A DNA stretch of 64,000 nucleotides from Phaeacidiphilus oryzae TH49 (GTDB lineage: Bacteria > Actinomycetota > Actinomycetes > Streptomycetales > Streptomycetaceae). The notes below the pieces were generated by a model. That model ran no database searches and had not been told where the DNA came from. It worked only from the letters and a program-made list of their open reading frames with translations. Where the stretch lies: positions 566,055 through 630,054 of the forward strand of contig NZ_JQMQ01000005.1 of the NCBI RefSeq assembly GCF_000744815.1, written 5' to 3'. This document shows, piece after piece, positions 32,566-48,810 of the stretch (position 1 is the stretch's first letter; every line of letters begins with the position of its first letter). A program made the position numbers and the translations under genes.

Positions 32566-35500
32566 GTGGCACGACCCAGATCAGCAGGAAGATCGTGGCG
32601 CGGCGGAACCGCGGCGGGGAGGCGCGCGCCGCTGGCGGCGCTCGCCGCGGCCGCCACCGCCGTGGGCATCGCGATGGCGGGGGCGCCACCGGCCTCCGCC
32701 GCGGCACCGCCCGGCCCCGGGCCGGCACCCACCCAGCAGCGGGACCAGGCGCAGGCCCAGACGGAGGCGCGGGACCAGACGGAGGCGCGGGCCCAGGCGC
32801 AGGCGTTCGCGGACAGCGCCGGCCTTCCGGCCGACGCGGTCGGCGCCGCCAGGCCCGGCCTCCCGGCCGAGGCCACCGACCCCGCGACCGGTCGGGACTG
32901 GGCGATCACCTCGTTCACGCCGGCCGCGGCGGCCGCGCCGGCCCCGGCCCGGAGCAGCACCGGCTTCCAGGACGGCGCCGCCACCGCCGTCCTCACCCGG
33001 ACCCCCGGCGGGGCCTGGCGGGTCGTCCATCGTGGCGGTCCGCTGGACTGCGGGTACGGGGTGCCCGCGGACATCCGGACGGCCCTCGGCCTGCCGGCGT
33101 CCGCGCCGGCCGCCTGCTCCGCCCACACCGCCGCCCAGCGCCGCGCCGCGCACACCGCGGCGGCCGCCCCGCCGCCCCCGCCGACAGCGCCGCCGGCGCC
33201 GGCACCGATCGCGGCGCGGACATCGCCCGGATCGCCCTCGGGCAGGTCGGCACGGCCACCACCCCCTCCGAGACCAGCTTCGCGGGCGTCGACTGCGACC
33301 CCTACACCACGCTGGTCGGCGCGTTCTCCCCGAACTCCAACGGCTGCGGAGGCGACGCCGGCTTCGGGGTCCGCGACGAGAACGAGGCCTGGTGCTCGGA
33401 CTTCGCCAAATGGGTCTGGGAGCAGGCCGGGGTGACCGCGGACGTGGACACCGTCAACGCCGGGGCGACCTCCTTCTACGCCTGGGCGCAGGAGCAGGGC
33501 CAGACCCCCGTGGTGGACTCGGGCACCCCCGAGCCCGGCGACGCGGTGGTCTTCTACCCGCCCGGCGCGGTCGACGCGAACCGCTACGCCGACCACGTCG
33601 GCATCGTCACCGCGGTCCATCCCGACGGCACGGTGGACCTGGTCAACGGGGACTTCCTGGGCGCGGACGGGATCACCGTCGAGTACGACCCCGGCGTCTC
33701 GCTGACCCCCTGGGCGGCCGGGGTGTGGGGGGCCGGCGAGCAGTGGGTGCTGGTCGCGCCCCCGGCGGGCGCCCAGCCGGCGGCCCCGCGGACCGCCGTC
33801 TCCGGCCCGCACAGCGCCGCGGCCGGCACGGCGGTGCGGCTGACCGCGGCCGCGCCCAGCGCGCCGGGGGCTCCCGCCCCCCGGTACGCCTGGACCTTCG
33901 GCGACGGCCGGGACACCGACGCCGCCACCGCCGCCGTGGACCACGTCTTCCCCGGTCCCGGCCGCTACAGCGTCACGCTGACCGCCACCGCCGCCACCGG
34001 CGCTGCCGCGACCGGCACCTTCGAGGTGGACGTGGCGGCCTCCTCCGGGGCCGCGGTGTCGGTTCCTGACACCTCGGTCTGGTACTCGGCCCGGCCGATC
34101 GACCAGTACCTCTTCCAGCCGGCCGCCGACGGGGGGCTCGCCGCGGAGGTCTCGGACGGGGTCGACTGGCTGCGCCGGGAGCCACCGGGCCGGCCCGCGC
34201 CCGGCACCGCCGTCACCGCGCTCGCCTATCCCGACCCGCGGGCCGCCGACGCCACCGTCCCGCACGCCTACTACCGCTCCGCCGACGGAACCCTGGCGGA
34301 GACCGCCCGGGACGGGGCCGGGGCCACCTGGTCGACGCGCGACCTGGCCGGCTCGCCGGCTCCGGGCAGCGCCCTCACCGCGGTCGCCACCGCGGCCGGC
34401 CCCGAGGTCTTCTTCTTCGACGGGTCCGGACGGCTCACCGAGTCCGCCGAGCGGGGCGGGACCTGGTCCGCCTCGGAGGTGGGCGGACCGCCCGTGCCGG
34501 CCGCCGACCGGGGAGCGCTCGCGGCCGTGCCGATCGGCGCCGGCGGCGACCCCGACGCCGTCGCGCTCTTCCAGCGCGACCGGGCAGGTGGCCTGACGGT
34601 ACGTCAACTCATCGGGGGCCACTGGCTTTCCGGGCACGTGCCGGGTGCGCTCGGCGCCCCGTCGAGCGGGCCGGCCGCGCTGGCCACCCCCGGCGGCGGT
34701 GCCGCGGTGTTCTCCACCGACGCCCACGGCAGGCTGTACGAGGCGGTGGCCGGGCGCACGGCCGCGGGCCTGAGCGGCTGGCGGGTGCACCTCCTCCCCG
34801 GCTCGCCGGCCGCCGGCGGACCGCTGGCGGCAACCACGTTCCTGCCGGGCACGGGCGCTGGCGGCTCCGGCGGCTCCGGCGGCTCGGGCGACACCGCCCC
34901 GCCGCTCGGCCAGGAGGTCTTCTACCTCGGCGGCGACGGCGTTCCCGCGGTCACCGCGGACGACGGCTCCGGCTGGCGGACCGGCACGCTGCCCGGCTCG
35001 GGCGGCACCGTCCTGGCCGCCGACGCCTACCCGCGCGCCGGCCTGCCGCAGCAGCTGTTCCTCTCCGGCCCCGACGGCCCCGGCAGCCTGACCCTGGACA
35101 GCACGGACGCCGCCGGAACCACCTGGTCGGCCACCCCCCTGCCGACCCGGACGACCGCCTACCCGGACACCGTCCTCCTCTACGCCGCGACGCCGGCCGA
35201 CGAGGAGAGCGCGCTGGCCGCCGCCCGGTCCGCGGGGCTGCCGGACGGCCAGGTCACCACCTCCTTCGCGCGGGCCTGGGCGGCCGCCCTCACCGGGGAC
35301 TACCTGGTGGTCGCGGTGGGCCGGCCGGCCCTCGACGCCCTCTACTACAACCCCTGCGGCTGGGCGAACCCCTCCGTCGAGGACGGCGGCTCGACGCCGT
35401 TCTTCCTCGCCCGCGGCCCGCTGAACGCCCCACCCGCGGCCGACGGCTTCGAGAACTCCGCCGCCGCCGACGACGCCCAGACCCCGGCCCTGGCCGCCGG

Positions 35501-35597
35501 CCTCGCCTTCTACGCGGTCCACGGCACCCTGCCGCCGGGAGCGACCCTGCCTCCCGCGGCCGCCCCGGCCCGCGTCTGCGCGGGCGCCGCCGGCTGA
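32566..35597 (+). CDS. Large secreted CHAP-PKD protein with propeller-like repeats (one frame break)
   Basis: From GTG 32566 (GGGAGG 5 nt upstream) the frame encodes a signal peptide (cleavage near ASA-AAPPG at about 48), a Gln/Ala/Arg-rich stretch and an unknown domain. At about 33175-33190, in a C-run, the frame moves by -1. One added base gives 1,010 residues. After the break come a CHAP-type amidase/peptidase (AWCSDFAKWVWEQAGV Cys, ADHVGIVTAV His, VNGDF Asn), a PKD domain (YAWTFGDGRDTD... FPGPGRYSVTLTATA) and several roughly 50-residue beta repeats resembling a lectin-type propeller. An unrecognised C-terminal domain of about 150 residues with paired Cys ends it. Probably a secreted wall-active or surface-binding enzyme. 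The divergently placed neighbours give no more information. Confidence 0.72.
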
Positions 35598-35703: not shown

Positions 35704-36720
35704 TCAGCCGCGCCCCTCCGCGGCGGCGGCCAGGGCCCGGCGGAGGTGGCCGTCGTGCTCGGCCAGGGCGGTGTGCGCCCGCGCTGCGGGGGCGCCGGTG
35801 AGGAGGGCGTAGACGGCCTCCTTCACCGAGCCGCCGGACGCCCGGAGGGCGGCCGAAGCGGTCGCCGCGTCCACCGCGGTGACCCGCATGACGGTGCGTT
35901 CGGCCCGGGCCATCAGCTTGTCGTTGGTGGCCTGGAGGTCGACCATGACGTTCCCGTAGGTCTTGCCGAGCCGCACCATGGTCAGCGTGGAGAGCATATT
36001 GAGCACCAGCTTCTGCGCGGTGCCGGCCTTCAGCCGGGTCGAGCCCGCGATCAGCTCAGGACCGGTGTCCGCCTCGATGGCGATCTCCGCCGCCGCGCCG
36101 ATCCGGGAGCCGGTGTTGCAGGCCACCGCGACGGTCAGCGCGCCGGCCGCGGCGGCCGTCCGCAGCGCCCCCAGCACATAGGGGGTGCGGCCGGAGGCGG
36201 AGAGGCCGACCAGGCTGTCGGAGGCGCCCAGGCCCAGCGCGGCGACATCGGCGGCGCCCGCGTCCTGGTCGTCCTCCGCGCCCTCCACGGCGGTGCGGAT
36301 CGCGGTGTCCCCGCCGGCGATCAGCCCGACGACCAGGTCCGGAGAGACGCCGAAGGTCGGCGGGCACTCGCTGGCGTCCAGCACGCCCATCCGGCCGGAG
36401 GTGCCGGCCCCGGCGTACACCAGGCGGCCGCCGCGGCGCATCCGCTCGGCGATCGCGTCCACCGCCTGGACGATCCTGGGGGCCGCCGCGCCGACCGCGG
36501 CCACCGCCGCCCGGTCGCAGGCGTGCATGGCGGCCACCAGGCCGCCGGTGTCCAGGAGGTCGAGCTGTTCGTGGTCGGCCTCGACGGCCTCGGTGGCGAG
36601 CCCGGCGAGCTCGGCGCGGAGCGCCGCGTGCGGATCGGCGGCGGGCCCGGCAGCGGGCCCCTCGGCGGCCTCGGCGGCGGGCTCGGCGGCCTGCGGGTCA
36701 GTGGCGGGGTGGTCGGACAC
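35704..36720 (-). CDS. murQ: N-acetylmuramic acid 6-phosphate etherase
   Basis: 338-residue SIS-fold enzyme that removes the lactyl ether from MurNAc-6-phosphate, giving GlcNAc-6-phosphate and D-lactate. Family blocks are strongly kept: GRLVYAGAGTSGRMGVLDASECPPTFG (with the Glu of ECPPTF), LVVGLIAGGDTAIRTAVEGAEDD, DSLVGLSASGRTPYVLGAL and TAQKLVLNMLSTLTMVRLGKTYGNVMVDLQ. The first 30 residues are an Ala/Glu/Pro extension. The GTG start overlaps the 3' end of the upstream kinase gene by 23 bp. It lies in the MurNAc-catabolism locus with kinase, RpiR regulator and NamZ. Confidence 0.95.
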   Translation of the reverse strand: MSDHPATDPQAAEPAAEAAEGPAAGPAADPHAALRAELAGLATEAVEADHEQLDLLDTGGLVAAMHACDRAAVAAVGAAAPRIVQAVDAIAERMRRGGRLVYAGAGTSGRMGVLDASECPPTFGVSPDLVVGLIAGGDTAIRTAVEGAEDDQDAGAADVAALGLGASDSLVGLSASGRTPYVLGALRTAAAAGALTVAVACNTGSRIGAAAEIAIEADTGPELIAGSTRLKAGTAQKLVLNMLSTLTMVRLGKTYGNVMVDLQATNDKLMARAERTVMRVTAVDAATASAALRASGGSVKEAVYALLTGAPAARAHTALAEHDGHLRRALAAAAEGRG

Positions 36721-37674
36721 GGAACACCTGCTTCTCGTGCGGGAGATCGGCTCGGGCGGTGAGGAGGGCGGCGCCGTCCAGGGCGTCGCCGAGCGGGGCG
36801 GCCGGACGCAGTCCGGCGGTGCTGAGGGCCTCGTGGAGGGCCTTGGCGAAGGCGGCGTCGCCGGTGAGCCCGCCGACCACGGCGACCGGAGCTCCCCCCG
36901 TCGCCACCGCGCACGCGGTCTCGACCAGCCGGTCCAGCGCCTCGGCCGCGATCCGCCGGGCGACCGCGTCGCCGTCCCGCGCGGCGGCGAGGACCGCGGG
37001 GGCGAAGGAGGCCAGCCGCCGTTCGGGGGCCGGGTCGCCGCCGACCACCGCCGGCAGGCGGGTGAGGGGGTCGGCGAGGGCGCGCGCGGCGTCCAGCAGT
37101 GCGGTGGCCGGTCCGCGCCCGTCCCAAGCGCGCAGCGCGGCGGTGAGTCCGCGCTGTCCGATCCATCGCCCGCTGCCGTCGTCGCCGAGCCAGATGCCCC
37201 AGCCGTCGGCGCGACGCAGCTCGCCGCCCTCGTCGAGGCCGGCGGCGACCGCGCCGGTGCCCGCGATCAGCACCACTCCCGGGCCGCCGGCCAGCGCGCC
37301 GGCGTGCGCGGTGACCAGGTCGCTGGTGACGAGCGCCGGACAGTGGTGGCGTTCGGCCAGCAGCGCGGCCAACCGTTCTGCCCCTTCCGGAGCCGCGCCG
37401 GCGCCGGCCGCGCCGACGGCCAGCGCGCCGATCGAGAGCCCGCCGACCACCGGCGGATCGAGGCGGGCCAGCACCGCGCCGACGGCCTCGGCCGCCCGCT
37501 GCACGCCGATCCGCTCGGCCAGCCCGGAAGCGCCGGGCCCTCCGCCCCGCCGGCCCGCCCGTCCGGCTCCGGCGTACCGAGACGGTTCGGCCGGGTGGTC
37601 CAACTACGGGCCCGGCAACGGGTCTTGCCCAGGTCGACGGCGACCAGGCCGACCCTCGCGGCGCCTGCCGGCAT
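36698..37674 (-). CDS. BadF/BadG-family aminosugar kinase, MurK/NagK-like (one frame break)
   Basis: ATG 37674 follows GGAGG and reads MPAGAARVGLVAVDLGKTRC, the ATPase phosphate-1 loop of the family. Near 37605 the frame moves by -1 and continues as DHPAEPSRYAG... VVLIAGTGAVAAGLDEGG ... GWGIWLGDDGSGRWIGQRGL ... VAVVGGLTGDAAFAKAL (phosphate-2 and adenosine motifs), ending in murQ. One added base gives about 325 residues. It should phosphorylate imported MurNAc and/or GlcNAc with ATP at C6, feeding MurQ. Clostridium MurK belongs to this family and has that activity. The break is in a G/C tract and is probably a sequence error. Confidence 0.8.
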
Positions 37675-37707
37675 CGCCCACCTCCGCAGTGTCACTTCTC
37701 AGCGGTC

Positions 37708-37772
37708 GGTAAATTACCTGTATCGGCGCGGGAATGAAAAGCATTGACGCATTCGGGGGGTCTGGCTAGGCT
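37708..37772 (+). promoter_or_regulatory. RpiR-gene promoter and GGTAAATTACC operator
   Basis: The perfect inverted repeat GGTAAATTACC (37708-37718) lies between the divergent kinase and regulator genes. TTGACG (37744-37749), 17 nt, and TAGGCT (37767-37772) form a good promoter that would start transcription within a few bases of the regulator's GTG (37781), so the mRNA is probably leaderless. A similar site precedes the transporter genes at 41132. Confidence 0.65.
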
Positions 37773-37780
37773 CACCGGCC

Positions 37781-38644
37781 GTGAGCATCAGGACGAGTAT
37801 CCAGTCCCAGGTGAACGACTATCCACCGTCCCTGCGCCGGGTCGCGGACGCGGTGCTGACGCGGCCTCAGATCGTTCTCGACCAGACGATCACCGAGCTC
37901 GCCCGCACCTGCGAGACCTCGGAGACCAGCGTGGTGCGGTTCTGCCGCACCCTCGGCTTCAAGGGCTACGCCCCGCTCCGCCTCCGGATGGCGACCGAAC
38001 TGGCCAGCGAGACCGCCAAGTTCGGCATGGAGGCGGGCTACGGCTCGGACATCACCCCGACCGACACCCTCGCCGACGCGGTCGCCAAGATCAGCACCGC
38101 CGAGATCGTGGGCATCCAGGAGACCGCCGCCAGCATCGACATCGCGGTCCTCGGGGAGATCGTCGACCGGGTGACGGCCGCCCGCCGGGTGCTCACCTTC
38201 GGCGTCGCGGCCAGCAACGTCGGGGCCCGCGACCTGGCCCAGAAGCTGCTGCGGATCGACATGGACGCCCTCTCCTTCACCGACGCCCACGAGGCGCTGG
38301 TGCCGGCCTCGCTGCTCGGCCCGCAGGGGGTGGCGATCGGCTTCTCCCACGGCGGACGCACCCGGGAGACCGTGGAGTTCCTGCGCGAGGCCCGGAAGAG
38401 CGGCGCGTACACGGTGGCGGTGACCAACGCCCAGTCCACTCCGCTGGAGGCGGAGGCGGACGCGACCCTCCGCACCGCGGTCCGGGAGATCCGCTTCCGG
38501 TCCGGGGCGATGGCCAGCCGGATCGCCCAACTGACCGTCGTGGACTACCTGTTCGTCGGGATCGCCCGTTCCGACTACGACCGCAGCGTCTCCGCGCTGG
38601 AGCGTACCTACGCCGCAACCCGCGCGCTGCGCGACGATCGCTGA
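37781..38644 (+). CDS. RpiR/MurR-family transcriptional regulator
   Basis: 287 residues: an N-terminal HTH_6 DNA-binding domain at about 1-77 (LRRVADAVLTRPQIVLDQTITELARTCETSETSVVRFCRTLGFKGYAPLRLRM) and a SIS phosphosugar-binding domain at about 110-260 (VLTFGVAASNVGARDLAQKLLRID, AIGFSHGGRTRETVEFLREAR). By location the ligand should be MurNAc-6-phosphate or GlcNAc-6-phosphate, and the targets both divergent units and the transporter genes. GTG start; the promoter geometry predicts a leaderless mRNA. Confidence 0.88.
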   Translation: MSIRTSIQSQVNDYPPSLRRVADAVLTRPQIVLDQTITELARTCETSETSVVRFCRTLGFKGYAPLRLRMATELASETAKFGMEAGYGSDITPTDTLADAVAKISTAEIVGIQETAASIDIAVLGEIVDRVTAARRVLTFGVAASNVGARDLAQKLLRIDMDALSFTDAHEALVPASLLGPQGVAIGFSHGGRTRETVEFLREARKSGAYTVAVTNAQSTPLEAEADATLRTAVREIRFRSGAMASRIAQLTVVDYLFVGIARSDYDRSVSALERTYAATRALRDDR

Positions 38645-38665
38645 CCGGCCCCAGAGGAGGCCCGC

Positions 38666-39940
38666 GTGCAGAACGCGCCCCACACGCCACATCCGCAGCA
38701 ACCGCAGCAACCGCAGCAACCGCAGCAACCGCAACAGCCCCCCACCGCCGTCGCCGGACTGGACCGGCTGCTCGCCGATCCGGGCCTGCTGCCCGCCCGC
38801 CGGATAGCCCTGGCCACCAACGCCACCGGGCTCACCGCCGACCTCCGCCGCGGCGTGGACGCGCTGGGCGAGGCGGGCTTCACCGTCTCCGTGCTGCTCA
38901 CCCCGGAGCACGGCCTCCACGGCACGGCCCAGGCCGGCGAGTCCGAGGGCCCCGGCAGCGACCCGGCCACCGGCATCCCGGTCGTGGACACCTACGAACT
39001 CCCGGCCGCCGAGCTGGACGCCGCGATCCGGGCGGCCGATCCGGAGGCCGTCGTCTTCGACATGCAGGACGTCGGCACCCGCTACTGGACCTACACCTCG
39101 ACCATGCTGGACTGCATGGCCGCGGCGGCCCGCACCGACGTCCCGTTCGCCGTGCTGGACCGCCCCGACCCGATCGGCGGCACCGCGGTCGAGGGCCCCG
39201 GACTCGATCCGGAGTACGCGAGCTTCGTCGGGCGGATCGACATCCCCCTGCGGCACGGCCTCACCGCCGGCGAGATCGCCCGGCTGGCCGCGCTCCGCTC
39301 CCGGACCGGCGGGTTCGGCGGATCGCCGCTGCCCGAGCCGACGGTGGTCGCCGTCGAGGGCTGGTCGGACCGGGCCCCCGGCGCCTGCGGCCCCTTCGTG
39401 CCGCCCTCCCCCAACCTCCCCACCCTGCCCTCGGCACTGGCCTTCCCCGCCACCGGGCTGGTCGAGGGCCTCAACGTCAGTGAGGGGCGCGGCACCACCA
39501 GGCCCTTCGAGACCATCGGCGCGCCCTTCGTCGACGCCCGGCTGCTGCCACTGCTCCGCGCCCAGGAACTGCCCGGGGTGCTGTGGCGGGAGACCTGGTT
39601 CCGCCCGGTGTTCCACAAGTACGCCGGAACCGTGCTGCGCGGGGTGGCGCTGCACATCACCGACGCCGAGGCCTTCGTACCGGTCCGCACCGGGCTGACG
39701 CTGCTGTGGGCGCTGGCCGAGCTCTACCCGGACGACCTCCGGGTGCTGCCGCGCTCGCCGGACACCCCCGCCGGGGAGCCGGGCTGCGCGCTGGACCGGC
39801 TGTGGGGCTCGGACGCCCTGCGCCGCCGGCTGGAGGCGGGCGCGGATCCGCGGGACCTGGTCGGGCCGCCGTCCACCGTCCGGGAGACCTATCCGGCGGC
39901 CCTCTTCGGGCCGGCGCGCCGTACCGCGGTGGCCCGGTGA
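38666..39940 (+). CDS. namZ: NamZ-type exo-beta-N-acetylmuramidase (DUF1343)
   Basis: 424 residues. After a Gln-Pro tract (9-bp unit repeated four times) comes the DUF1343/GH171 fold: LATNATGLTADLRRGVDALGEAG, LLTPEHGLHGTAQAGE, VVFDMQDVGTRYWTYTSTMLDCM, FAVLDRPDPIGGTAVEGP, PLRHGLTAGEIA and LNVSEGRGTTRPFETIGAPF. Bacillus NamZ removes terminal MurNAc from the non-reducing end of peptidoglycan fragments. I see no signal peptide, so it would act on imported fragments or leave by another route. GTG start with GAGGAGG upstream. Its TGA overlaps the next GTG. Confidence 0.88.
   Translation: MQNAPHTPHPQQPQQPQQPQQPQQPPTAVAGLDRLLADPGLLPARRIALATNATGLTADLRRGVDALGEAGFTVSVLLTPEHGLHGTAQAGESEGPGSDPATGIPVVDTYELPAAELDAAIRAADPEAVVFDMQDVGTRYWTYTSTMLDCMAAAARTDVPFAVLDRPDPIGGTAVEGPGLDPEYASFVGRIDIPLRHGLTAGEIARLAALRSRTGGFGGSPLPEPTVVAVEGWSDRAPGACGPFVPPSPNLPTLPSALAFPATGLVEGLNVSEGRGTTRPFETIGAPFVDARLLPLLRAQELPGVLWRETWFRPVFHKYAGTVLRGVALHITDAEAFVPVRTGLTLLWALAELYPDDLRVLPRSPDTPAGEPGCALDRLWGSDALRRRLEAGADPRDLVGPPSTVRETYPAALFGPARRTAVAR
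38696..38731. repeat. CAGCAACCG x4 tandem repeat inside namZ
   Basis: Four perfect 9-bp copies coding Gln-Gln-Pro repeats in the NamZ N-terminus; repeat slippage could vary the tract length. Confidence 0.85.
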
Positions 39941-41064
39941 GCGCGGCACTGCGGCGCATCGCCGCCCTGGTGGACCAGGCCGTGGCGGACGGGGTCTGCT
40001 CCGCCGCGGCGGTGGCGGTGGACGTCGACGGCGCGCCGGCACTGCGGCACTGGGCGGGGGTGCTGCAGCGGATCGGCGACGACGGCGCGGAGCTGCCGGC
40101 CGCCGAGCGGCCGCCGGTTCGCCCGGACACCTGCTTCGACCTGGCCTCGGTGACCAAGGTCTACTCCGCCCACACCCTCCTCGGCCTGGTCGCCGAGGGC
40201 GTCCTCGCGCTGGACGCGCCGGTGGCGCGATGGCTGCCGGAGTACCGGGAGGGCGCCCGCTCCGAGGTCACCCTCCGCCACCTCCTCACCCACACCTCGG
40301 GGCTGCCCGCCGTCTGGGACGGCTGGCGGGAGGCCGTAAGGCGGCGAGCTCCGGACGGCGCGCCGCCATCCGCGCCGGACCGCCGCGCGCTCACCGCCGA
40401 TCTGGCCGCCGTGCCGCTGGCGGCGCCGCCCGGCACCCGCTGGGTGTACGCCTGCACCGGGTACCTCACCGCGATGCTGCTGGCCGAGCGGGCCACCGGG
40501 CGGCCCTGGGCGGAGCTGGTCCGCCGGCACACCCTGGACCCCCTCGGGCTGGCCGCGACCACCTTCCGCCCCGACCGGGAGCGCACCGCGGCCACCGAGT
40601 ACCAGCCCGAGTTCGGCCGGGGCACCGTCCGCGGGGTGGTCCACGACGAGGCGGCCTGGTCGCTGGGCGGGACGGCGGCCAACGCCGGGCTGTTCGCGCC
40701 GCTGGAGGACGTGCTGCGGTTCGCCGAGGCGATCCGCCGCGGCGAGGAGGAGCGGACGGCGGTGTGGATGTGGGACGACCAGTTGCCCTCGGTGCTGCGC
40801 CCGGAGGCCCAGCGGCCCCCGCACGGCGTCTCGTTGGGGCTGCGCATCGGCGAGACGGCCTGGATGGGCCCGGAGGGCTCGGCCTGCCGCGGCCACACCG
40901 GTTTCACCGGCACCTCGCTGCAGATCGACCGGGCGCGCGGGGTCAGCGTCGTGCTCCTCACCAACCGGGTGCACCCCACCCGGGAGGGCCGTCCCGTGCA
41001 TCCGCTGCGCGCCGCCACGGCTACCGCCGCCCTTGCCGACTTCCCTGCTCAGCAGCATTTCTGA
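39937..41064 (+). CDS. Beta-lactamase-fold serine hydrolase, possible MurNAc-L-Ala amidase (AmiE/YbbE-like)
   Basis: 375 residues, class C beta-lactamase/penicillin-binding fold. Catalytic S71-x-x-K74 lies in DLASVTKVY, the Tyr in WVYACTGY (Y171, with A-C instead of the usual S-N), and the third motif is H320-T-G in RGHTGFTG. LRHLLTHTSGLP is the usual family block. No signal peptide is seen. In Bacillus subtilis a relative, AmiE/YbbE, removes stem peptides from MurNAc and is encoded beside namZ, nagZ, murQ and murR. The same neighbourhood here supports that role, though esterase or D-amino peptidase activity cannot be excluded. GTGA overlap with namZ. Confidence 0.82.
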   Translation: MSAALRRIAALVDQAVADGVCSAAAVAVDVDGAPALRHWAGVLQRIGDDGAELPAAERPPVRPDTCFDLASVTKVYSAHTLLGLVAEGVLALDAPVARWLPEYREGARSEVTLRHLLTHTSGLPAVWDGWREAVRRRAPDGAPPSAPDRRALTADLAAVPLAAPPGTRWVYACTGYLTAMLLAERATGRPWAELVRRHTLDPLGLAATTFRPDRERTAATEYQPEFGRGTVRGVVHDEAAWSLGGTAANAGLFAPLEDVLRFAEAIRRGEEERTAVWMWDDQLPSVLRPEAQRPPHGVSLGLRIGETAWMGPEGSACRGHTGFTGTSLQIDRARGVSVVLLTNRVHPTREGRPVHPLRAATATAALADFPAQQHF

Positions 41065-41127
41065 TGAATCATCAGGAAACCCCGGAGGCGGCCGGGTCGC
41101 GATTGGACATCGGCTCGCCGTAAACCA

Positions 41128-41157
41128 TTGACGTAAATTTCCTTGCATCGGTAACCT
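41128..41157 (+). promoter_or_regulatory. Importer promoter with second RpiR-type site
   Basis: TTGACG (41128-41133), 18 nt, TAACCT (41152-41157). The spacer begins with cGTAAATTTCC (41132-41142), matching 9 of 11 bases of the GGTAAATTACC site at 37708, so the importer genes probably share the RpiR regulator. Confidence 0.55.
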
Positions 41158-41209
41158 TCCGACGACCTTCGGACGCCGGGGCGAACCCACAAAGGGAAGG
41201 ACCCGCCAC

Positions 41210-42091
41210 GTGACCGCCATCGACCAGCCCGCCGGAGCGCCGCGGCGCGGCGCCGGGCGCCGGAGAGGACGGGCCGGCGCCGCACCCGTCGTCGGCCACA
41301 CCGTGCTCGCCATCGCCTCCGCCGTGGTGCTGGTGCCGCTGCTCTTCGTGGTCTACCTGTCGCTGAAGGACGTCGCCGGGATCCTCGGCACCCCGCTCTC
41401 CCCGCCGCATCCGGTGCACTGGGGCAACTACGGGCAGTCCTGGTCGGAGGGCGACCTCGGCCGCTTCCTGCTGAACACCCTGGTGGTGGCGGTGGTGACG
41501 GTGGCGGTGATCCTGCTGGTGTCCTCGCTGGCGGCGTTCGTCATCGCGCGCTACCGCTTCCGCGGCAACCAGCTGCTCTACCTGTTCTTCGTCTCCGGCC
41601 TGGCACTGCCGATCCAGATCATCGCGCTGCCGGTGTTCATCCTGATCGAGAACCTCGGCCTGCTGAACACACTGCCCGCGCTGATCCTGGTCTTCGCCTC
41701 CGGCGGCATCTCCTACAGCGTCTTCATCCTGGTCAACTACATGCGCTCGATCCCGTTCGAGCTCCAGGAGGCCGCGGTGATGGACGGCGCGGGCCCGCTG
41801 CGGATCTACTGGCACGTGGTGCTGCCGCTGGTCCGCCCGGCGCTCGGCATTGTGGCCGTCTTCCAGTTCCTGACCGCCTGGAAGGAGTTCTTCCTTCCGC
41901 TGCTGCTCATCCAGGACCCGCAGAACATGACGGTGGCGGTCGGCATCCTCTCCTTCGTCGGCGAGCACACCACGCAGTGGCAGCTGCTGCTGGCCGGCCT
42001 GGTGATGGTGTCACTGCCCACGATCATCGGATTCCTGCTGGTGGCACGGCAGTTCCGGCGCAACCTGATCAGCGGCGGCATCAAGATGTGA
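41210..42091 (+). CDS. Sugar ABC importer permease (MalG type), MurNAc locus
   Basis: 293 residues with six helices. The EAA loop reads FELQEAAVMDGAGPLRIYWHVVLPLV. A CUT1 carbohydrate permease with a basic Arg/Gly-rich N-terminus. GTG start with GGGAAGGA upstream. The gene order permease-binding protein-permease is unusual; most CUT1 operons start with the binding protein. No ATPase gene is present, pointing to the shared MsiK-type subunit. The substrate is inferred from the locus: MurNAc, MurNAc-containing disaccharide or muropeptide sugar. Confidence 0.85.
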   Translation: MTAIDQPAGAPRRGAGRRRGRAGAAPVVGHTVLAIASAVVLVPLLFVVYLSLKDVAGILGTPLSPPHPVHWGNYGQSWSEGDLGRFLLNTLVVAVVTVAVILLVSSLAAFVIARYRFRGNQLLYLFFVSGLALPIQIIALPVFILIENLGLLNTLPALILVFASGGISYSVFILVNYMRSIPFELQEAAVMDGAGPLRIYWHVVLPLVRPALGIVAVFQFLTAWKEFFLPLLLIQDPQNMTVAVGILSFVGEHTTQWQLLLAGLVMVSLPTIIGFLLVARQFRRNLISGGIKM

Positions 42092-42144
42092 GCCGCCGCG
42101 CTCCGCCCCCGGCATCGCCCTGTTCCCGCGAAAGGACGCCTCCC

Positions 42145-43488
42145 ATGGCCCCGACTCCCGGCTTCCGGCGCCGTCAGCGCCGTACCGGCACCGCCCTGCT
42201 CGCCTGCGCGGTGAGCGCTGCCGCCCTCGGCCTCACCGGCTGCGGGACCTCCGCGGGCTCGTCCGCGGAGCCGACCGTCACCGTGTGGTCCTGGCGCGCC
42301 CAGGACGCGCCGGTCTGGAAGACCGTCCAGGACGACCTGGCGAAGCAGGGCACCAACGTCCGGATCCAGTTCCGCGCCATCAACGCGACCTCGTACGACT
42401 CGGTGCTGCAGACCGCGATGAACGGCGGCTCCGGGCCGGACATCTACTACGACCGGGCCGGCGAGGGGACCGAGAAGTACGCCGCCGCCGGGATGGCCGC
42501 CCCGCTCGACGGCTCGGTGGACACCTCGGCCATCGGCAAGGACGCGCTCGCCGCCGCGCAGTACCGGGGGAAGACCTACGGCGTGCCGTTCGCCGTGCAG
42601 TCGATGGAGCTCTTCTACAACAAGAAGCTGCTCGCCGACAACGGCGTGCAGGTGCCGCAGACCTGGACGCAGCTGATCTCGGCGATGAAGACGCTGAAGT
42701 CCAAGGGCGTGACGCCGATGTACGTGATGGGCGTGCAGCAGTGGCTGCTGGCCCTGCAGATCGACGCGATCGGCGCCTCCACACTGGACGACTCCACCGC
42801 CCAGGCCATCACCGACAAGAAGGCCACCTACTCCGATCCGCAGTTCGTCCGGACGCTGGCCGCCTTCCAGCAGCTCTCCCCCTACCTGGAGAAGAACTGG
42901 CAGGCCACCGGCTCGGCCGGGAACGAGCAGGAGACCCAGTTCGCGCTCGGCAAGACCGCCTTCATCATCGACGGCATCTTCGACACCGCGACCATCGACC
43001 AGGTCAACCCCTCCCTGCAGTACGGGCAGATCCTGGTCCCCTCGCCGGACGGCAAGCAGCCCCGGCTGGACTGGTACATAGACGGCGACTTCTCGCTCAA
43101 CTCCCACATCAGGTCGAGCGCCGAGTCGACGGCCGCCGAGAAGGTGCTCGGCTTCACCGCCACCAAGACCTTCGGCGACGCCTTCTCCCAGGTGGCCGGC
43201 GAGATCTCGCCGATCCAGGGGGTCCAGGTGCCGGCCAAGTACCCGCTGAGCGTGGAGGCCGCCCACTGGTACCAGACCCAGGCCGTCAAGCCGGTCTTCG
43301 GCATCCGCTCGCCGATGGACAACCCGCCGGTGAGCCCCTCGGACATCAAGAAGAAGTCCGCGGCGACCACGCCGGGCATCTTCACCGCCGAGCAGAACAT
43401 CGCGACCCCGCTGCTGAACGGGAAGCTGACGCCGCAGCAGGCCGCCGCGAAGATCGACTCGCAGCTCTCCTGGTACTTCGGCAAGTAG
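42145..43488 (+). CDS. Lipoprotein sugar-binding subunit of the MurNAc-locus importer
   Basis: 447-residue family 1 solute-binding protein. The lipoprotein signal ends LGLTGCGTS (lipobox LTGC, Cys at about 33). Mature motifs are VTVWSWRAQDAPVWKTVQDDL, GPDIYYDRAGEGTEKYAAAGM and QYRGKTYGVPFAVQSMELFYNKK. AAAGGACG precedes the ATG. It captures the substrate outside the membrane. The family spans many oligosaccharides, so the MurNAc assignment rests on its position between namZ/amiE-like genes and the permeases. Confidence 0.85.
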   Translation: MAPTPGFRRRQRRTGTALLACAVSAAALGLTGCGTSAGSSAEPTVTVWSWRAQDAPVWKTVQDDLAKQGTNVRIQFRAINATSYDSVLQTAMNGGSGPDIYYDRAGEGTEKYAAAGMAAPLDGSVDTSAIGKDALAAAQYRGKTYGVPFAVQSMELFYNKKLLADNGVQVPQTWTQLISAMKTLKSKGVTPMYVMGVQQWLLALQIDAIGASTLDDSTAQAITDKKATYSDPQFVRTLAAFQQLSPYLEKNWQATGSAGNEQETQFALGKTAFIIDGIFDTATIDQVNPSLQYGQILVPSPDGKQPRLDWYIDGDFSLNSHIRSSAESTAAEKVLGFTATKTFGDAFSQVAGEISPIQGVQVPAKYPLSVEAAHWYQTQAVKPVFGIRSPMDNPPVSPSDIKKKSAATTPGIFTAEQNIATPLLNGKLTPQQAAAKIDSQLSWYFGK

Positions 43489-43495
43489 CGGCGCC

Positions 43496-44556
43496 ATGGA
43501 ACTCCCCACCTCCGCCTCCGCCCGCAGGGGCACGGGCACCGGCACGGACACGAGCCCCGGCGCGGACACCGGCAGCGGGACGGCCGCCGCGGCCGAGCCG
43601 GGGCCCGCCCCGGACCGGCCGCGCCCCGGCGCCGCGCCGGCCGCCGGGTCCCGCGCCGCCAGGGCCTGGTCCTCGGCGGCCTGGTGCTGCCCTGCCTGCT
43701 GCTCTTCGCCGTCTTCGTGGTCTATCCGCTGGTCTCCGGCGTCCGGTACAGCTTCTACAACTGGAACGGCACAGGCCCGCTGATCGACTTCGTCGGGCTG
43801 CGCAACTACACCTACACCCTCTTCGACTCGCAGTTCGCGCCGCAGTTCTGGCACGCCGTCGAGCACAACCTGTACTTCTTCGCGATCTCGATGGTGCTCA
43901 CCCTGGTGATCGGCATCGGCCTCGCCTACCTGCTGCTCCTCCAGAACGAGCGGGCGTCCCGCCGGTACTCGGTGATCCTGATGCTGCCGTTCACCCTGCC
44001 GCCGGTGGCGATCGCCTATGTGTGGACGGTCTATCTGGAGCCCAACACGGGGGTGCTCTACTCCGCCCTCAACACCCTCCACCTGGACGCGCTGGCGGCG
44101 CCCTTCCTGGGCTCCACCACCCTGGCCCTGCCCACCATCGCGGTGATCACCGCCTGGGCCGGGATGGGCTTCCCGGTGCTCCTCTTCCTCGCCTCGCTGA
44201 CCGACATCCCGCAGGACATGCTGGACGCGGCGGCCCTGGACGGGGCCGGACGGCTGCGCACCCTGTGGTCGGTGCTCATCCCGGCGATCAGGCCGACCAT
44301 CCTGATGGTCACCACGATGAACTTCATCGGGGCCTTCGGCACCTTCGACCTGATCTACATCCTGGAGGGCACCCAGGCGGGCCCCGACTACTCCACCGAC
44401 GTCCTGGGCACCCTCTTCTACCGCACCGGTTTCGGCGGGTTCGGCAGCACCGCGCAGTCGATGGGCCTGGCCACCGCGCTGGCCCTGCTCGGCTTCGTGA
44501 TCGTGGTCGCCGTCTCGGCGGTGCTGCTGCGGCTGCAGAAGCGGTTCGCGGACTGA
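43496..44556 (+). CDS. Sugar ABC importer permease (MalF type), MurNAc locus (one frame break)
   Basis: ATG 43496, 7 nt after the binding-protein stop, opens a Thr/Gly/Ala-rich N-terminus. Near 43664, at an AGGGCC, the frame moves by -1 into GLVLGGLVLPCLLLFAVFVV (first helix) and runs to 44556. One added G gives about 353 residues. Six helices follow the MalF pattern, and the EAA loop is MLDAAALDGAGRLRTLWSVLIPAI. Reading only the continuous frame would start at GTG 43684, inside the first helix, and lose the N-terminus. Probably a sequence error. It pairs with the permease at 41210. Confidence 0.78.
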
Positions 44557-44638: not shown

Positions 44639-45655
44639 CTAGCCGTTCGGGGCGATGGTGATGTGCACCTTGGGCGCGCCGCCGGCCTGGGTGCGGGCGA
44701 GTTCCAGGGCCTTGGGCACCTGCTCCAGCTCGCAGCGGGCGCGCAGGCAGTGGTCGACGGCTATCGCCCCGGTGCGGATCAGGGTCAGCGCCTCCCGGAA
44801 GGAGGCGAGTCCCGGTTCGAACTGGGCGCCGCTGCACCACTCCACGGCCACCGTGTCGCGGAACGCCCGGTCCACCGGGAACGGCGAGAGACCGGGGAGC
44901 TCCGGGTAGCCGAAGCAGCCGACCGTCCCGCGCTTGCGGACCGCCGCGACCGCCTGCGCCCGGGTGGCGTCGAACCCGGCCGCCTCGATCACCAGGTCGG
45001 CCCCGCGTCCGCCGGTCGCCTCCAGCACCGCCTCGGTGAAGTCCTCGCCGGGCGCCCGCACGGTGCGGGCCGCGCCCAGCCGGGCGGCCTCGGCCAGCCG
45101 GCCCTCGTCCAGATCGGAGACGGCGACCACGTCGTAGCCGCGGCGGAGCAGCAGTTGGAGGAGAAAGAGCCCGGCGGAGCCCGCCCCGATGACGGCGGCG
45201 GTGCCGCCCTCCCCGTCCCTCGCGCCCGGGGCGGAGCGGAGGAAGCGCTTCAGCGCGAAGACCGTGGTGCCCAACTGCTGGGCCAGCAGCAGCCGTTCGA
45301 TGCCCGTCTCGGCGACGGCCGCGGCCGGCAGCGGGATCAGCCAGCGCCGCTCGACGGCCTGGTACTCGGCGAAGCAGCAGCCGAGCCGCCCGGAGGGCAC
45401 GGTCAGCACCGGGGTGCCGGGCGGAAGGCCGGCGTCCCCGCTGCTCTCGTCGATCACCCCGACGCCCTCGTGCCCGGGGTACCCCGGCACGCCGAGGAAC
45501 TCCTCGTCGTGGAAGCCGTGGTGGACGACGTGGATGTCGGACCCGCAGACGGAGGCGTGCCGCATCCGCACCAGCAACTGGTCCGGACGCGGCCTGGGAA
45601 CGGGGAAGTCGGCCACCTCGACGCGGCCGGGCTCGGGCACGAAGGCTGCGCGCAT
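44639..45655 (-). CDS. Zinc-binding alcohol/polyol dehydrogenase-like protein
   Basis: 338-residue medium-chain dehydrogenase. Catalytic-zinc ligands are C and H/E in VCGSDIHVVHHG and YPGHEGVGV. The Rossmann motif is AAVIGAGSAGLFLLQLLLRRGYDVVAVSDLD. The four-Cys structural-zinc loop is missing, replaced by PSGRLGCCFAEYQAV, as in sugar-dehydrogenase-like branches. ATG 45655 with GGAGG upstream. Divergent from a ribose-type ABC importer over a 267-bp spacer, so it probably oxidises the imported sugar or polyol, whose identity is not evident. Confidence 0.83.
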   Translation of the reverse strand: MRAAFVPEPGRVEVADFPVPRPRPDQLLVRMRHASVCGSDIHVVHHGFHDEEFLGVPGYPGHEGVGVIDESSGDAGLPPGTPVLTVPSGRLGCCFAEYQAVERRWLIPLPAAAVAETGIERLLLAQQLGTTVFALKRFLRSAPGARDGEGGTAAVIGAGSAGLFLLQLLLRRGYDVVAVSDLDEGRLAEAARLGAARTVRAPGEDFTEAVLEATGGRGADLVIEAAGFDATRAQAVAAVRKRGTVGCFGYPELPGLSPFPVDRAFRDTVAVEWCSGAQFEPGLASFREALTLIRTGAIAVDHCLRARCELEQVPKALELARTQAGGAPKVHITIAPNG

Positions 45656-45714
45656 ACGGGTCCCTCCGAGGGGCTGCCTGGCACGGAACGCTCCTGCCCG
45701 ACCAGCTTGCCGCA

Positions 45715-45724
45715 TTGCATACAA
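45715..45724. promoter_or_regulatory. Possible GntR-like site between dehydrogenase and importer
   Basis: TTGCATACAA is a near-palindrome in an A/T-rich patch 60 bp before the dehydrogenase start, resembling FadR-type GntR half-sites. Weak evidence; no regulator gene is adjacent. Confidence 0.25.
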
Positions 45725-45922: not shown

Positions 45923-46960
45923 ATGCTCAGTCGGCACGGATTCCGGATCGGCGCGCTGACGGTCGCGCTGGTCGCAGCGGCGGCCGGCTGCGGCCGCGGC
46001 GGCACCGCCCACAGCTCCTCGTCCGGCGGCGCCGGCGGGGGCCTGAAGGTCGCCATCGTCACCCGCGACTTCAGCAACCCGTACTGGGCGGCCCTACGGG
46101 ACGGCGCCCTGGCGCAGGGGAGGAAGCTGGGCGTGCGGGTCAACGTCCAGGCCGGCGCCGACGAGACCGATTCGGACGGCGAGAACGCCAAGATCTCCAC
46201 CCTGGCGGGCCAGGGGTACAACTGCTTCGGCGTGGTCCCGGTGAACGCCACCAACGTGATCACCCCGCTAGTGCCGGTGGCGCAGAAGAAGATCCCGATC
46301 CTCGACCTGGACACCCAGATCAGCCCGTCCGCCGCCTCCGCCGCCGGGGTCTCCTTCGCCACCTTCATCGGCTCGGACAACTCCGACGCGGGCCGGATCG
46401 CCGGCCAGAGGATGCTCCAGGTCCTGGGCGGCACGGGCAAGGTGGCCGTGCTCCAGGGCATCGCGGGCGAGCAGAACGGCATCAACCGGGTGAACGCCTT
46501 CTCCCAAACCGTGGCCGGCAAGCTGACCATCGTGCAGAAGGCGCCCGCCGACTACGAGCAGGACAAGGCGCTCACCGTCACCGAGGCCGTCCTCCGCGCC
46601 CACCCGGACATCACCGGGATCTTCGCCGCCAACGACACCATGGGCCTGGGGGCCGCCCAGGCGATCACCAACGCCGGCAGGTCCGGCCGGATCAAGGTCA
46701 TCTCGGTGGACGGCATCCAGGACGCCCTGCAGTCCGTGCAGTCCGGCACCCTCTCCGGCACCGTCACCCAGTACCCGTACGCCGAGGGCCAGTTGGCGGT
46801 CTCCGCCTGTCTGGCGCTGGCCGAGCACAAGACCGTCCCGGCCCGGGTGGTCTCCCCGATCAAGCTGATCACCTCGCAGAACGTGCAGCAGGCCCGATCG
46901 GCCTTCCCCAAGCCGTACTTCGCCTACTCCGACCCGATCACCCCGCTGGTGGCGAAGTGA
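45923..46960 (+). CDS. Ribose-type ABC importer, lipoprotein binding subunit
   Basis: 345-residue periplasmic-binding-protein type 4 (RbsB-like). The lipoprotein signal ends AAAAGCGRG (Cys at about 23). Mature sequence: LKVAIVTRDFSNPYWAALRDGALAQGRKLGVRVNVQ, then GYNCFGVVPVNATNVITPLV, IPILDLDTQI, GIFAANDTMGLGAAQAITNAG and ISVDGIQDAL. These are the conserved ligand-pocket positions of the family (N, P, W; D, N, D). AGGAGAGG lies about 15 nt before the ATG. First of three genes encoding a complete importer. Confidence 0.88.
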   Translation: MLSRHGFRIGALTVALVAAAAGCGRGGTAHSSSSGGAGGGLKVAIVTRDFSNPYWAALRDGALAQGRKLGVRVNVQAGADETDSDGENAKISTLAGQGYNCFGVVPVNATNVITPLVPVAQKKIPILDLDTQISPSAASAAGVSFATFIGSDNSDAGRIAGQRMLQVLGGTGKVAVLQGIAGEQNGINRVNAFSQTVAGKLTIVQKAPADYEQDKALTVTEAVLRAHPDITGIFAANDTMGLGAAQAITNAGRSGRIKVISVDGIQDALQSVQSGTLSGTVTQYPYAEGQLAVSACLALAEHKTVPARVVSPIKLITSQNVQQARSAFPKPYFAYSDPITPLVAK

Positions 46961-46973
46961 GCGCGGTGGCCGG

Positions 46974-47969
46974 ATGAGCGTCACCACCGGGACCGGCGAG
47001 CGCGGGGACCACGTGAGCGCGGAACCCTTCGAACCGAGCCGCTGGCGGCGCTGGTCGCCGGCGCTGGCCCGGCATGCCGCGGCGATCGGGCTGCTCGGGG
47101 TGTTCGTGGTGTTCTTCATCGCCACCCCGGACTTCCTGACCGTCGGCAACATCACCGACCTGCTGGTCTCGGCGGCGATCCTGGTCGTGCTGGCCCTGGG
47201 CCAGCAGGTGGTGATCGTCGCCGCCGGGATCGACCTGTCGGTCGGCGCCAACCTGCCCTGGGCCGCGGTGCTCTTCGGCGAGGGGATGTCGCACGGCTGG
47301 GGGGTGACCGCCTCGACGCTGCTCTCGATCGCCGGGGCGGGCGCGGTCGGCCTGGTCAACGGGCTGGTCACGGCGGTGGCCGGGGTCACCGACTTCATCG
47401 CCACCCTGGGTTCGCTGAGCGTGGTCAGCGGCATCTCGCTGCTGCTGACCGCGGGCAACACCACCCCGGTCTCCTCCCCCTTCCTCCGCCGTCTCGCGCT
47501 GGACGGGATCGGCCCGGTGCGGTGGTTCTGGCTGGTGGCGGCGGTGGTCGCGGCCGCCGTCTGGCTCGGCATCGCGCGCACCAGGACCGGCACCCACCTG
47601 CTGGCCACCGGCGGAAACCTGGAGGCGGCACGGGAGGCCGGCATCCCGGTGGCCCGGATGCGGGTGCTGGCCTACACGGCGTCCGGGCTCCTCTGCGGAC
47701 TGGCCGGGGTGCTGTACGTGGCGCGCACCGGCGGGGCGGACCCGACGCTGCAGACCGACTTCCTCCTCAGCTCGATCGCCGCCGTGGTGCTCGGCGGGTC
47801 GAGCCTCTTCGGCGGGCAGAGCGCGGTGCTGGGCACGGTGGCCGGCGCGGTGCTGCTGACCGCACTGGTCAACGGGTTCACCATCCTCGGTATCTCGCAG
47901 TACTACCAGCCGATCGCGGTGGGCGGGGTGGTGGTCGCGGCCGCCGTCCTGTCCCGCTTCAAGCGGTAG
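46974..47969 (+). CDS. Ribose-type ABC importer, permease
   Basis: 331-residue RbsC-like membrane protein (BPD_transp_2) with about ten helices. Family blocks: LTVGNITDLLVSAAILVVLALGQQVVIVAAGIDLSVGANL, GLVNGLVTAVAGVTDFIATLGSLSVVSGI and AAVVLGGSSLFGGQSAVLGTVAGAVLLTALVNGFTILGIS. Begins 13 nt after the binding-protein gene. A GTG at about 47013 (GGGGA upstream) is an alternative start. Confidence 0.87.
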   Translation: MSVTTGTGERGDHVSAEPFEPSRWRRWSPALARHAAAIGLLGVFVVFFIATPDFLTVGNITDLLVSAAILVVLALGQQVVIVAAGIDLSVGANLPWAAVLFGEGMSHGWGVTASTLLSIAGAGAVGLVNGLVTAVAGVTDFIATLGSLSVVSGISLLLTAGNTTPVSSPFLRRLALDGIGPVRWFWLVAAVVAAAVWLGIARTRTGTHLLATGGNLEAAREAGIPVARMRVLAYTASGLLCGLAGVLYVARTGGADPTLQTDFLLSSIAAVVLGGSSLFGGQSAVLGTVAGAVLLTALVNGFTILGISQYYQPIAVGGVVVAAAVLSRFKR

Positions 47970-47988
47970 GAGCAGAAGGGGGATTGAC

Positions 47989-48810
47989 ATGGCGTCGGTG
48001 TCCGAGCGGGCGGGCGCGCCCGGCGGCGGCCCGGCCGTCCCGGCCGACTCGCTGGTCGAGGCGCGCGGCCTGGTGAAGACCTTCGACGCGGTACGCGCCC
48101 TCCAGGGCCTGACCGTCACCGTCCCGCGCGGCGAGATCACCGCGCTGGTCGGCGACAACGGCGCCGGGAAGTCCACGCTGATCCGCTGCCTGACGGGGGT
48201 GGACGCGCCGGACGCGGGCGAGATCGTCTTCGACGGCTCGCCGATCCATCTGGACTCCCCCGCCCGTGCCCGCCGGCGCGGCATCGAGACCGTCTACCAG
48301 GACCTGGCCCTGGTGGAGGACCTGCGGGTGTGGCAGAACCTCTTCCTCAACCGGGAGTTGAGGTACGGACCGCTCCGGCTCGGCCTCCTCGACCGGCGGC
48401 GGATGATCGAGGAGAGCCGGCAGATCCTGGCCCGGCTGGAGGTGGACGTCCCCTCGGTGCGGGCCACCGTCCGCCGGATGTCCGGCGGCCAGCGCCAGTG
48501 CGTGGCCATCGCCCGCGCGGTGACCTGGGGCCGCTCGCTGGTCATCATGGACGAGCCGACGGCCGCGCTGGGCGTCCGGGAGACCCACGCGGTGGAGAGG
48601 CTGGTGCTGCGGCTGAAGGAGCGCGGGGTCACCGTGCTGATCATCAGCCACGACCTGGACCAGGTGCTGCGGATCGCGGACGGGGTGTGGGTGCTCCGGC
48701 GCGGGCGCGCGGTCGGCTACCGCCGGATCGCGGCCACCGGCGGAGACGAGCTCGTCGGCCTGATCACCGGCGCGATCGCCGGCGACGGCGGCGCGACCGC
48801 ACCGGCCTGA
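47989..48810 (+). CDS. Ribose-type ABC importer, single-domain ATPase
   Basis: 273 residues with one nucleotide-binding domain: Walker A GDNGAGKST, Q-loop VYQDLALVEDL, signature RMSGGQRQ, Walker B LVIMDEPTAALG, and H-loop ISHDL. RbsA-type ATPases usually have two fused domains of about 500 residues; this single-domain form must work as a homodimer, as in the FrcA-type branch. AGGAG lies upstream, 20 nt after the permease. Completes the import system. Confidence 0.88.
   Translation: MASVSERAGAPGGGPAVPADSLVEARGLVKTFDAVRALQGLTVTVPRGEITALVGDNGAGKSTLIRCLTGVDAPDAGEIVFDGSPIHLDSPARARRRGIETVYQDLALVEDLRVWQNLFLNRELRYGPLRLGLLDRRRMIEESRQILARLEVDVPSVRATVRRMSGGQRQCVAIARAVTWGRSLVIMDEPTAALGVRETHAVERLVLRLKERGVTVLIISHDLDQVLRIADGVWVLRRGRAVGYRRIAATGGDELVGLITGAIAGDGGATAPA

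Follow-up and report, generated by a model that had tools for sequence, protein, structure and literature searches.

Eight neighboring genes of Phaeacidiphilus oryzae TH49 probably encode an ABC transporter-based route for the salvage of muramic acid-containing peptidoglycan fragments, in which the substrate would be imported first, cut inside the cell, phosphorylated, and then passed to the etherase MurQ. The genes lie in a window of 64,000 nucleotides (the whole stretch of DNA that was analyzed; contig NZ_JQMQ01000005.1, positions 566,055 to 630,054). In the proposed pathway, an unphosphorylated MurNAc fragment would enter through a binding lipoprotein and two permeases that draw their energy from a shared MsiK-like ATPase; MurNAc-GlcNAc or a MurNAc-peptide is the most likely cargo. 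In the cytosol, an AmiE-like hydrolase would strip the peptide, if any, and NamZ would free MurNAc at the non-reducing end. A BadF-type kinase would convert MurNAc to MurNAc-6P, from which MurQ would produce GlcNAc-6P and D-lactate, and an RpiR regulator is predicted to control the pathway.

MurNAc salvage, NamZ, AmiE-like amidases and MurK-like kinases are already known, as is PTS-independent uptake combined with a kinase in Tannerella (PMC5790795). The locus most likely represents a variant of this recycling pathway in which import is driven by ATP and one enzyme has been shifted from the outside to the inside of the cell.

Organization of the locus

The original prediction is borne out for all eight genes, for the strands on which they lie and for the span 35704–44556 (window coordinates), as well as for the order of the importer genes, with the binding protein between MalG and MalF. 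The features are as follows:

35704–36720, minus strand: MurQ, N-acetylmuramic acid 6-phosphate etherase (TIGR00274), its start overlapped by the kinase stop
36698–37674, minus strand: BadF-type sugar kinase, MurK/NagK-like (PF01869), with an apparent frameshift at about 37531–37605
37708–37718, no strand assigned: GGTAAATTACC, a possible site for a regulator within the divergent promoter region
37781–38644, plus strand: RpiR/MurR-type regulator (HTH_6, PF01418, and SIS, PF01380)
38666–39940, plus strand: homologue of the exo-N-acetylmuramidase NamZ (GH171-type), lacking a signal peptide (PF07075 and PF20732)
39937–41064, plus strand: AmiE/PBP4B-like serine hydrolase without signal peptide (PF00144), its start overlapping the namZ stop
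41128–41160, plus strand: promoter-like stretch CATTGAC...GGTAACC 5' of malG, conserved in the nearest relative
41210–42091, plus strand: CUT1 importer permease, MalG-like (PF00528)
42145–43488, plus strand: CUT1 sugar-binding lipoprotein (PF01547) with lipobox LTGC
43496–44556, plus strand: CUT1 importer permease, MalF-like (PF00528), with an apparent frameshift at about 43597–43640

No PTS gene, including a MurP EIIBC permease of the Bacillus subtilis type, is present among the genes of the locus. The next gene encodes a zinc alcohol dehydrogenase (44639–45724, minus strand), beyond which lies an RbsB/RbsC/RbsA-like ABC importer operon (45923–48810); nothing was found that ties the dehydrogenase or the RbsB-like importer to the MurNAc pathway. 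Elsewhere in the window, a GH3 family domain is located inside a large gene (about 22310–23305), and the genome contains 12 GH3 domains.

In G077, the nearest relative, GTAAATTACC also precedes the RpiR gene and is followed by a TTGAC box. This site and the promoter-like boxes are common to the window and G077 only, and GTAAATTACC was rejected as a general MurR site because it was not found in the wider relatives.

All eight genes are in place, as expected for the complete locus that had been proposed, but the kinase and MalF are each split between two reading frames. Compared with the intact kinases of L119 and L123, the kinase switches frame at about 37531–37605: ATG 37674 opens the frame that holds its N-terminal motif MPAGAARVGLVAVDLGKTRCRA, whereas the remainder lies in another, where the uninterrupted part covers 36698–37603 with a stop directly upstream of TTG 37603. 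MalF, which is 89–93% identical to the intact MalF of L102, starts at ATG 43496 in one frame and continues as an uninterrupted open reading frame (43684–44556) in another, the switch lying at about 43597–43640. The gene of a CHAP-like secreted protein (32632–35597), outside the pathway, is likewise in two frames relative to its L102 homologue, with the switch near 33150. The G+C content of this DNA is 71–78%. Since there are three splits within 11 kb, one of them outside the pathway, assembly indels in G+C-rich DNA are the simpler reading and a likely, albeit unproven, cause of the kinase and MalF splits. Programmed frameshifting in either gene finds no support, because the homologues run through without a break and the split also affects a third gene that is unrelated. 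The two split genes relative to intact homologues (2/8) might instead mark a decaying locus, with a truly frameshifted kinase and MalF and a pathway dead or rerouted in this strain. This appears quite unlikely: the split of the unrelated neighbor (32.6–35.6 kb) is of the same kind and points to assembly indels, the six other genes are unbroken and retain conserved motifs, and RpiR, NamZ, the amidase, MalG and the binding protein are still 77–86% identical to their G077 counterparts. The kinase and MalF are presumed to be functional in the organism.

MurQ and the sugar kinase

MurQ scores 330 bits against the equivalog model TIGR00274, for which the curated cut-off is 302. It aligns end-to-end with the solved MurQ structures 4s12 and 4lzj (E-value 3e-79; residues 37–330 on 4s12) and contains the segments DASECPPTFG and VEGAEDD. 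It is the only MurQ found in the genome.

The kinase belongs to the BadF/NagK fold family (PF01869, 76 bits), and the N-terminal phosphate-binding motif VDLGKTRCRA is present in the frame other than that of the remainder. Its best solved match is 8zo3, and its closest solved relatives, a MurNAc/GlcNAc kinase and a hexokinase, have similar scores; the two are almost equally close, which counts against the MurNAc reading, and the sequence of the kinase does not decide its specificity. In work of 2011 attributed to Reith, MurK of Clostridium acetobutylicum (Bacillota) is said to be an ATP-dependent kinase with dual activity on MurNAc and GlcNAc. The window kinase, also proposed to be ATP-dependent, would likewise act on MurNAc.

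NamZ and the AmiE-like hydrolase

The NamZ homologue contains both the NamZ_N and NamZ_C domains (PF07075, 192 bits, and PF20732, 134 bits) with their conserved motifs, placing it in the GH171 family. Export is usual in the Bacillus relatives of NamZ, but it is not needed for membership of the family and is not predicted for the window protein. No signal peptide was found at any upstream start, the N-terminus has no hydrophobic stretch, and only 21 bases separate namZ from the RpiR gene. The lack of a signal peptide noted in the original prediction therefore holds. Shared with the AmiE-like hydrolase, it is what most sets this locus apart, and for NamZ it proved to be a property of a well-supported non-exported clade.

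In a tree of 118 NamZ sequences, the window protein falls inside an actinobacterial clade of 22 members (SH-aLRT 99), in none of which a signal peptide is recognizable by a rule-of-thumb script with manual overrides, used in place of SignalP. This clade is sister to 58 exported actinobacterial NamZ proteins carrying mostly Tat-type signals, a dozen of which were assigned by adding Tat-like starts by eye. The N-termini of L081 and L098, whose signal peptides the script missed, were also read by eye, and script flags at internal starts (L069, L077, L078, L102 amidase) were overridden by hand. Seven genomes (G127, G284, G295, G351, G368, G384 and G486) encode both exported and signal-less NamZ. 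NamZ homologues without a recognizable signal peptide were also seen in Myxococcota, Candidatus Binatota and Chlorobiaceae (L192, L193, L199, L188, L190, L201, L208). Both Kribbella rubisoli (L129) and the Streptomyces-like L067 have a signal-less NamZ next to other CUT1 permeases, and in the Streptosporangiaceae relatives namZ is divergent from murQ and the amidase gene.

The AmiE-like hydrolase (PF00144, 203 bits) also has neither a signal peptide nor a hydrophobic N-terminus. Across the relatives, the signal peptide of the amidase tracks its neighbor, being absent beside signal-less NamZ and present beside exported NamZ. The best NCBIfam model for the window protein is PBP4B, with a score under the cut-off of that model. 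It contains the SxxK motif of serine hydrolases as SVTK, whereas the second motif is YAC in the window and L102 compared with YSD in the 14 other aligned homologues. We therefore call this protein AmiE-like rather than AmiE, and its substrate may differ. In the proposed route, the hydrolase would act on MurNAc-peptides and NamZ would release MurNAc from MurNAc-GlcNAc.

Tentatively, the cytosolic NamZ clade of Actinomycetota, the cytosolic AmiE-like amidases and the CUT1 importers may together form a muropeptide route in which import comes first, cutting takes place inside and phosphorylation comes last. Such a route could be the ABC counterpart of Staphylococcus aureus MurP/MupG, with the importers as a candidate ABC family for MurNAc compounds. 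Alternatively, the importer might take up free MurNAc only, released outside by exported hydrolases made elsewhere, leaving only a secondary role for the cytosolic NamZ and AmiE-like protein, such as acting on fragments that another importer brings in. L080–L082 and L137 do pair the same importer type with extracellular NamZ and amidase, and MurNAc or a trimmed sugar is therefore the likely cargo there. For the window this arrangement is unlikely: the only NamZ found in the genome is the non-exported one, and the genes for NamZ, the amidase and the importer form a single operon-like series that includes overlaps.

The importer and its ATPase

The binding protein (PF01547, 96 bits) carries the lipobox LTGC, and both permeases belong to PF00528. 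No ATPase gene is present in the locus, as the original prediction stated; this is not the unusual trait it was taken for, because one strong MalK/MsiK-type ATPase of 369 amino acids is encoded elsewhere in the genome (C5:3229257). Streptomyces CUT1 importers share MsiK. Two PF00528 permeases, a PF01547 lipoprotein and a MalK-type ATPase encoded elsewhere correspond to a CUT1 importer with an MsiK-type ATPase, and the protein encoded at C5:3229257 is probably the shared ATPase of this system. The permease–binding protein–permease order had likewise been regarded as unusual. Among the relatives it recurs in the nearest one alone; we dropped it as an indicator of function, and it carries no mechanistic weight.

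An AlphaFold2 model of the binding protein is of moderate confidence (pLDDT 69) and was set aside, since similar folds would not reveal the ligand. The closest solved relatives of the binding protein bind varied oligosaccharides, a point against the MurNAc reading. Its profile neighbors include binding proteins for chitin oligosaccharides, raffinose-type sugars and xylooligosaccharides, which would fit an importer of a different sugar, be it GlcNAc, a chitin oligosaccharide or one from plants, with a GlcNAc kinase beside it and a loose link to murQ. The weak NagK match of the kinase and the several relatives of the binding protein with the kinase or RpiR alone nearby point the same way. This possibility is nevertheless quite unlikely, as the linkage of this binding-protein family to murQ and namZ recurs in different families and extends to Bacillota.

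Conservation of the gene set

A profile of the binding protein (A2) run on 395 Actinomycetes genomes picked 27 candidates, 21 of them above 420 bits, and with the next best at 291 bits the family was assigned to these 21 genomes. MurQ is encoded within about 9 kb of the binding protein in 9 of the 21 loci, where a chance of about 0.3% would be expected for one murQ per 7 Mb genome; the linkage is therefore beyond chance. The fraction rises to 16/21 when murQ, namZ, the kinase or the amidase is accepted as neighbor and to 20/21 when RpiR is added (window included in all three counts). NamZ occurs in 18 of the 21 genomes with the binding protein compared with 75/395 overall (Fisher p ~1e-11, shared ancestry uncorrected). 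Conversely, the binding protein is present in half (9/18) of the genomes with signal-less NamZ (p ~2e-8, again uncorrected for shared ancestry).

The whole operon (NamZ–amidase–RpiR–MurQ–binding protein–MalF–MalG–kinase) is found in L080–L082 and in Terrabacter sp. Root85 (L137). Outside the phylum, Neobacillus thermocopriae (L178, Bacillaceae) has the order RpiR–binding protein–MalF–MalG–MurQ–amidase–NamZ, and Alkalicoccus and Virgibacillus have kinase–MurQ–importer sets with more distant binding proteins. This conserved co-occurrence in Actinomycetota and some Bacillaceae strongly supports the core of the original prediction, namely an ABC importer in place of the PTS and an ATP-dependent kinase in place of PTS phosphorylation, followed by MurQ.

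In G077, the order RpiR–NamZ–amidase–MalG–binding protein–MalF is kept with 77–93% identity (85% for RpiR, 86% for MalG), and murQ, the kinase gene and a second RpiR gene lie about 17 kb away, MurQ being only 54% identical. In some relatives the importer lies apart from murQ and namZ. The original prediction had named such separation as evidence against it, and these cases do count against MurNAc import. The co-occurrence across Streptomycetaceae that it proposed as a check did not materialize: the binding protein is present in just 2 of 200 sampled genomes of the family (the window genome and G077), and conservation of the locus throughout the family was rejected.

Comparison with known systems

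The B. subtilis cluster murQ-murR-murP-amiE-nagZ-namZ, in which NamZ corresponds to ybbC, processes muropeptides extracellularly (PMC5061867). Like the window locus, it encodes MurQ, an RpiR-type regulator, an AmiE-like hydrolase and NamZ together. It differs in having nagZ, which the window cluster lacks, and the PTS permease MurP, in place of which the window has a CUT1 ABC importer and a BadF-type kinase. Processing occurs outside the cell in B. subtilis, whereas the window NamZ and AmiE-like protein have no signal peptide.

Import of the whole fragment followed by cutting inside is the best reading by analogy with S. aureus, where MurP imports intact MurNAc-GlcNAc and MupG cuts it inside (PMC6262408). 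Both the S. aureus system and the proposed route would thus cleave an intact imported disaccharide in the cytosol before MurQ acts. In S. aureus, however, PTS phosphorylation comes first and MupG cuts the phosphorylated disaccharide, whereas the window NamZ would cut the unphosphorylated one before the kinase acts. No MupG was found in the P. oryzae genome.

The murTKQ operon of Tannerella forsythia combines PTS-independent uptake, an ATP-dependent kinase and MurQ (PMC5790795, PMC10465942), the same sequence of functions as proposed here. Its transporter belongs to the sodium symporter superfamily rather than to the CUT1 importers, and the operon has no NamZ or amidase. Streptomyces coelicolor has MurQ and makes MurNAc-6P without MurP (PMC5061867). 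Its SCO4305–SCO4308 genes resemble the window locus in combining murQ with an RpiR-type regulator, but an importer, NamZ and an amidase, all present in the window, are unreported there (PMC5061867). No description of an ABC importer for MurNAc or of a cytosolic NamZ was found in the literature searched, the original NamZ and Clostridium MurK papers lying outside it.

The mycobacterial MurNAc transporter was called unknown in a 2026 preprint (PMC13041923). For MurNAc uptake in actinobacteria without MurP, the binding-protein family linked to murQ and namZ offers a testable candidate in part of the phylum. If the proposed route is true, the cytosolic clade of exo-muramidases would broaden the supposed roles of NamZ enzymes.
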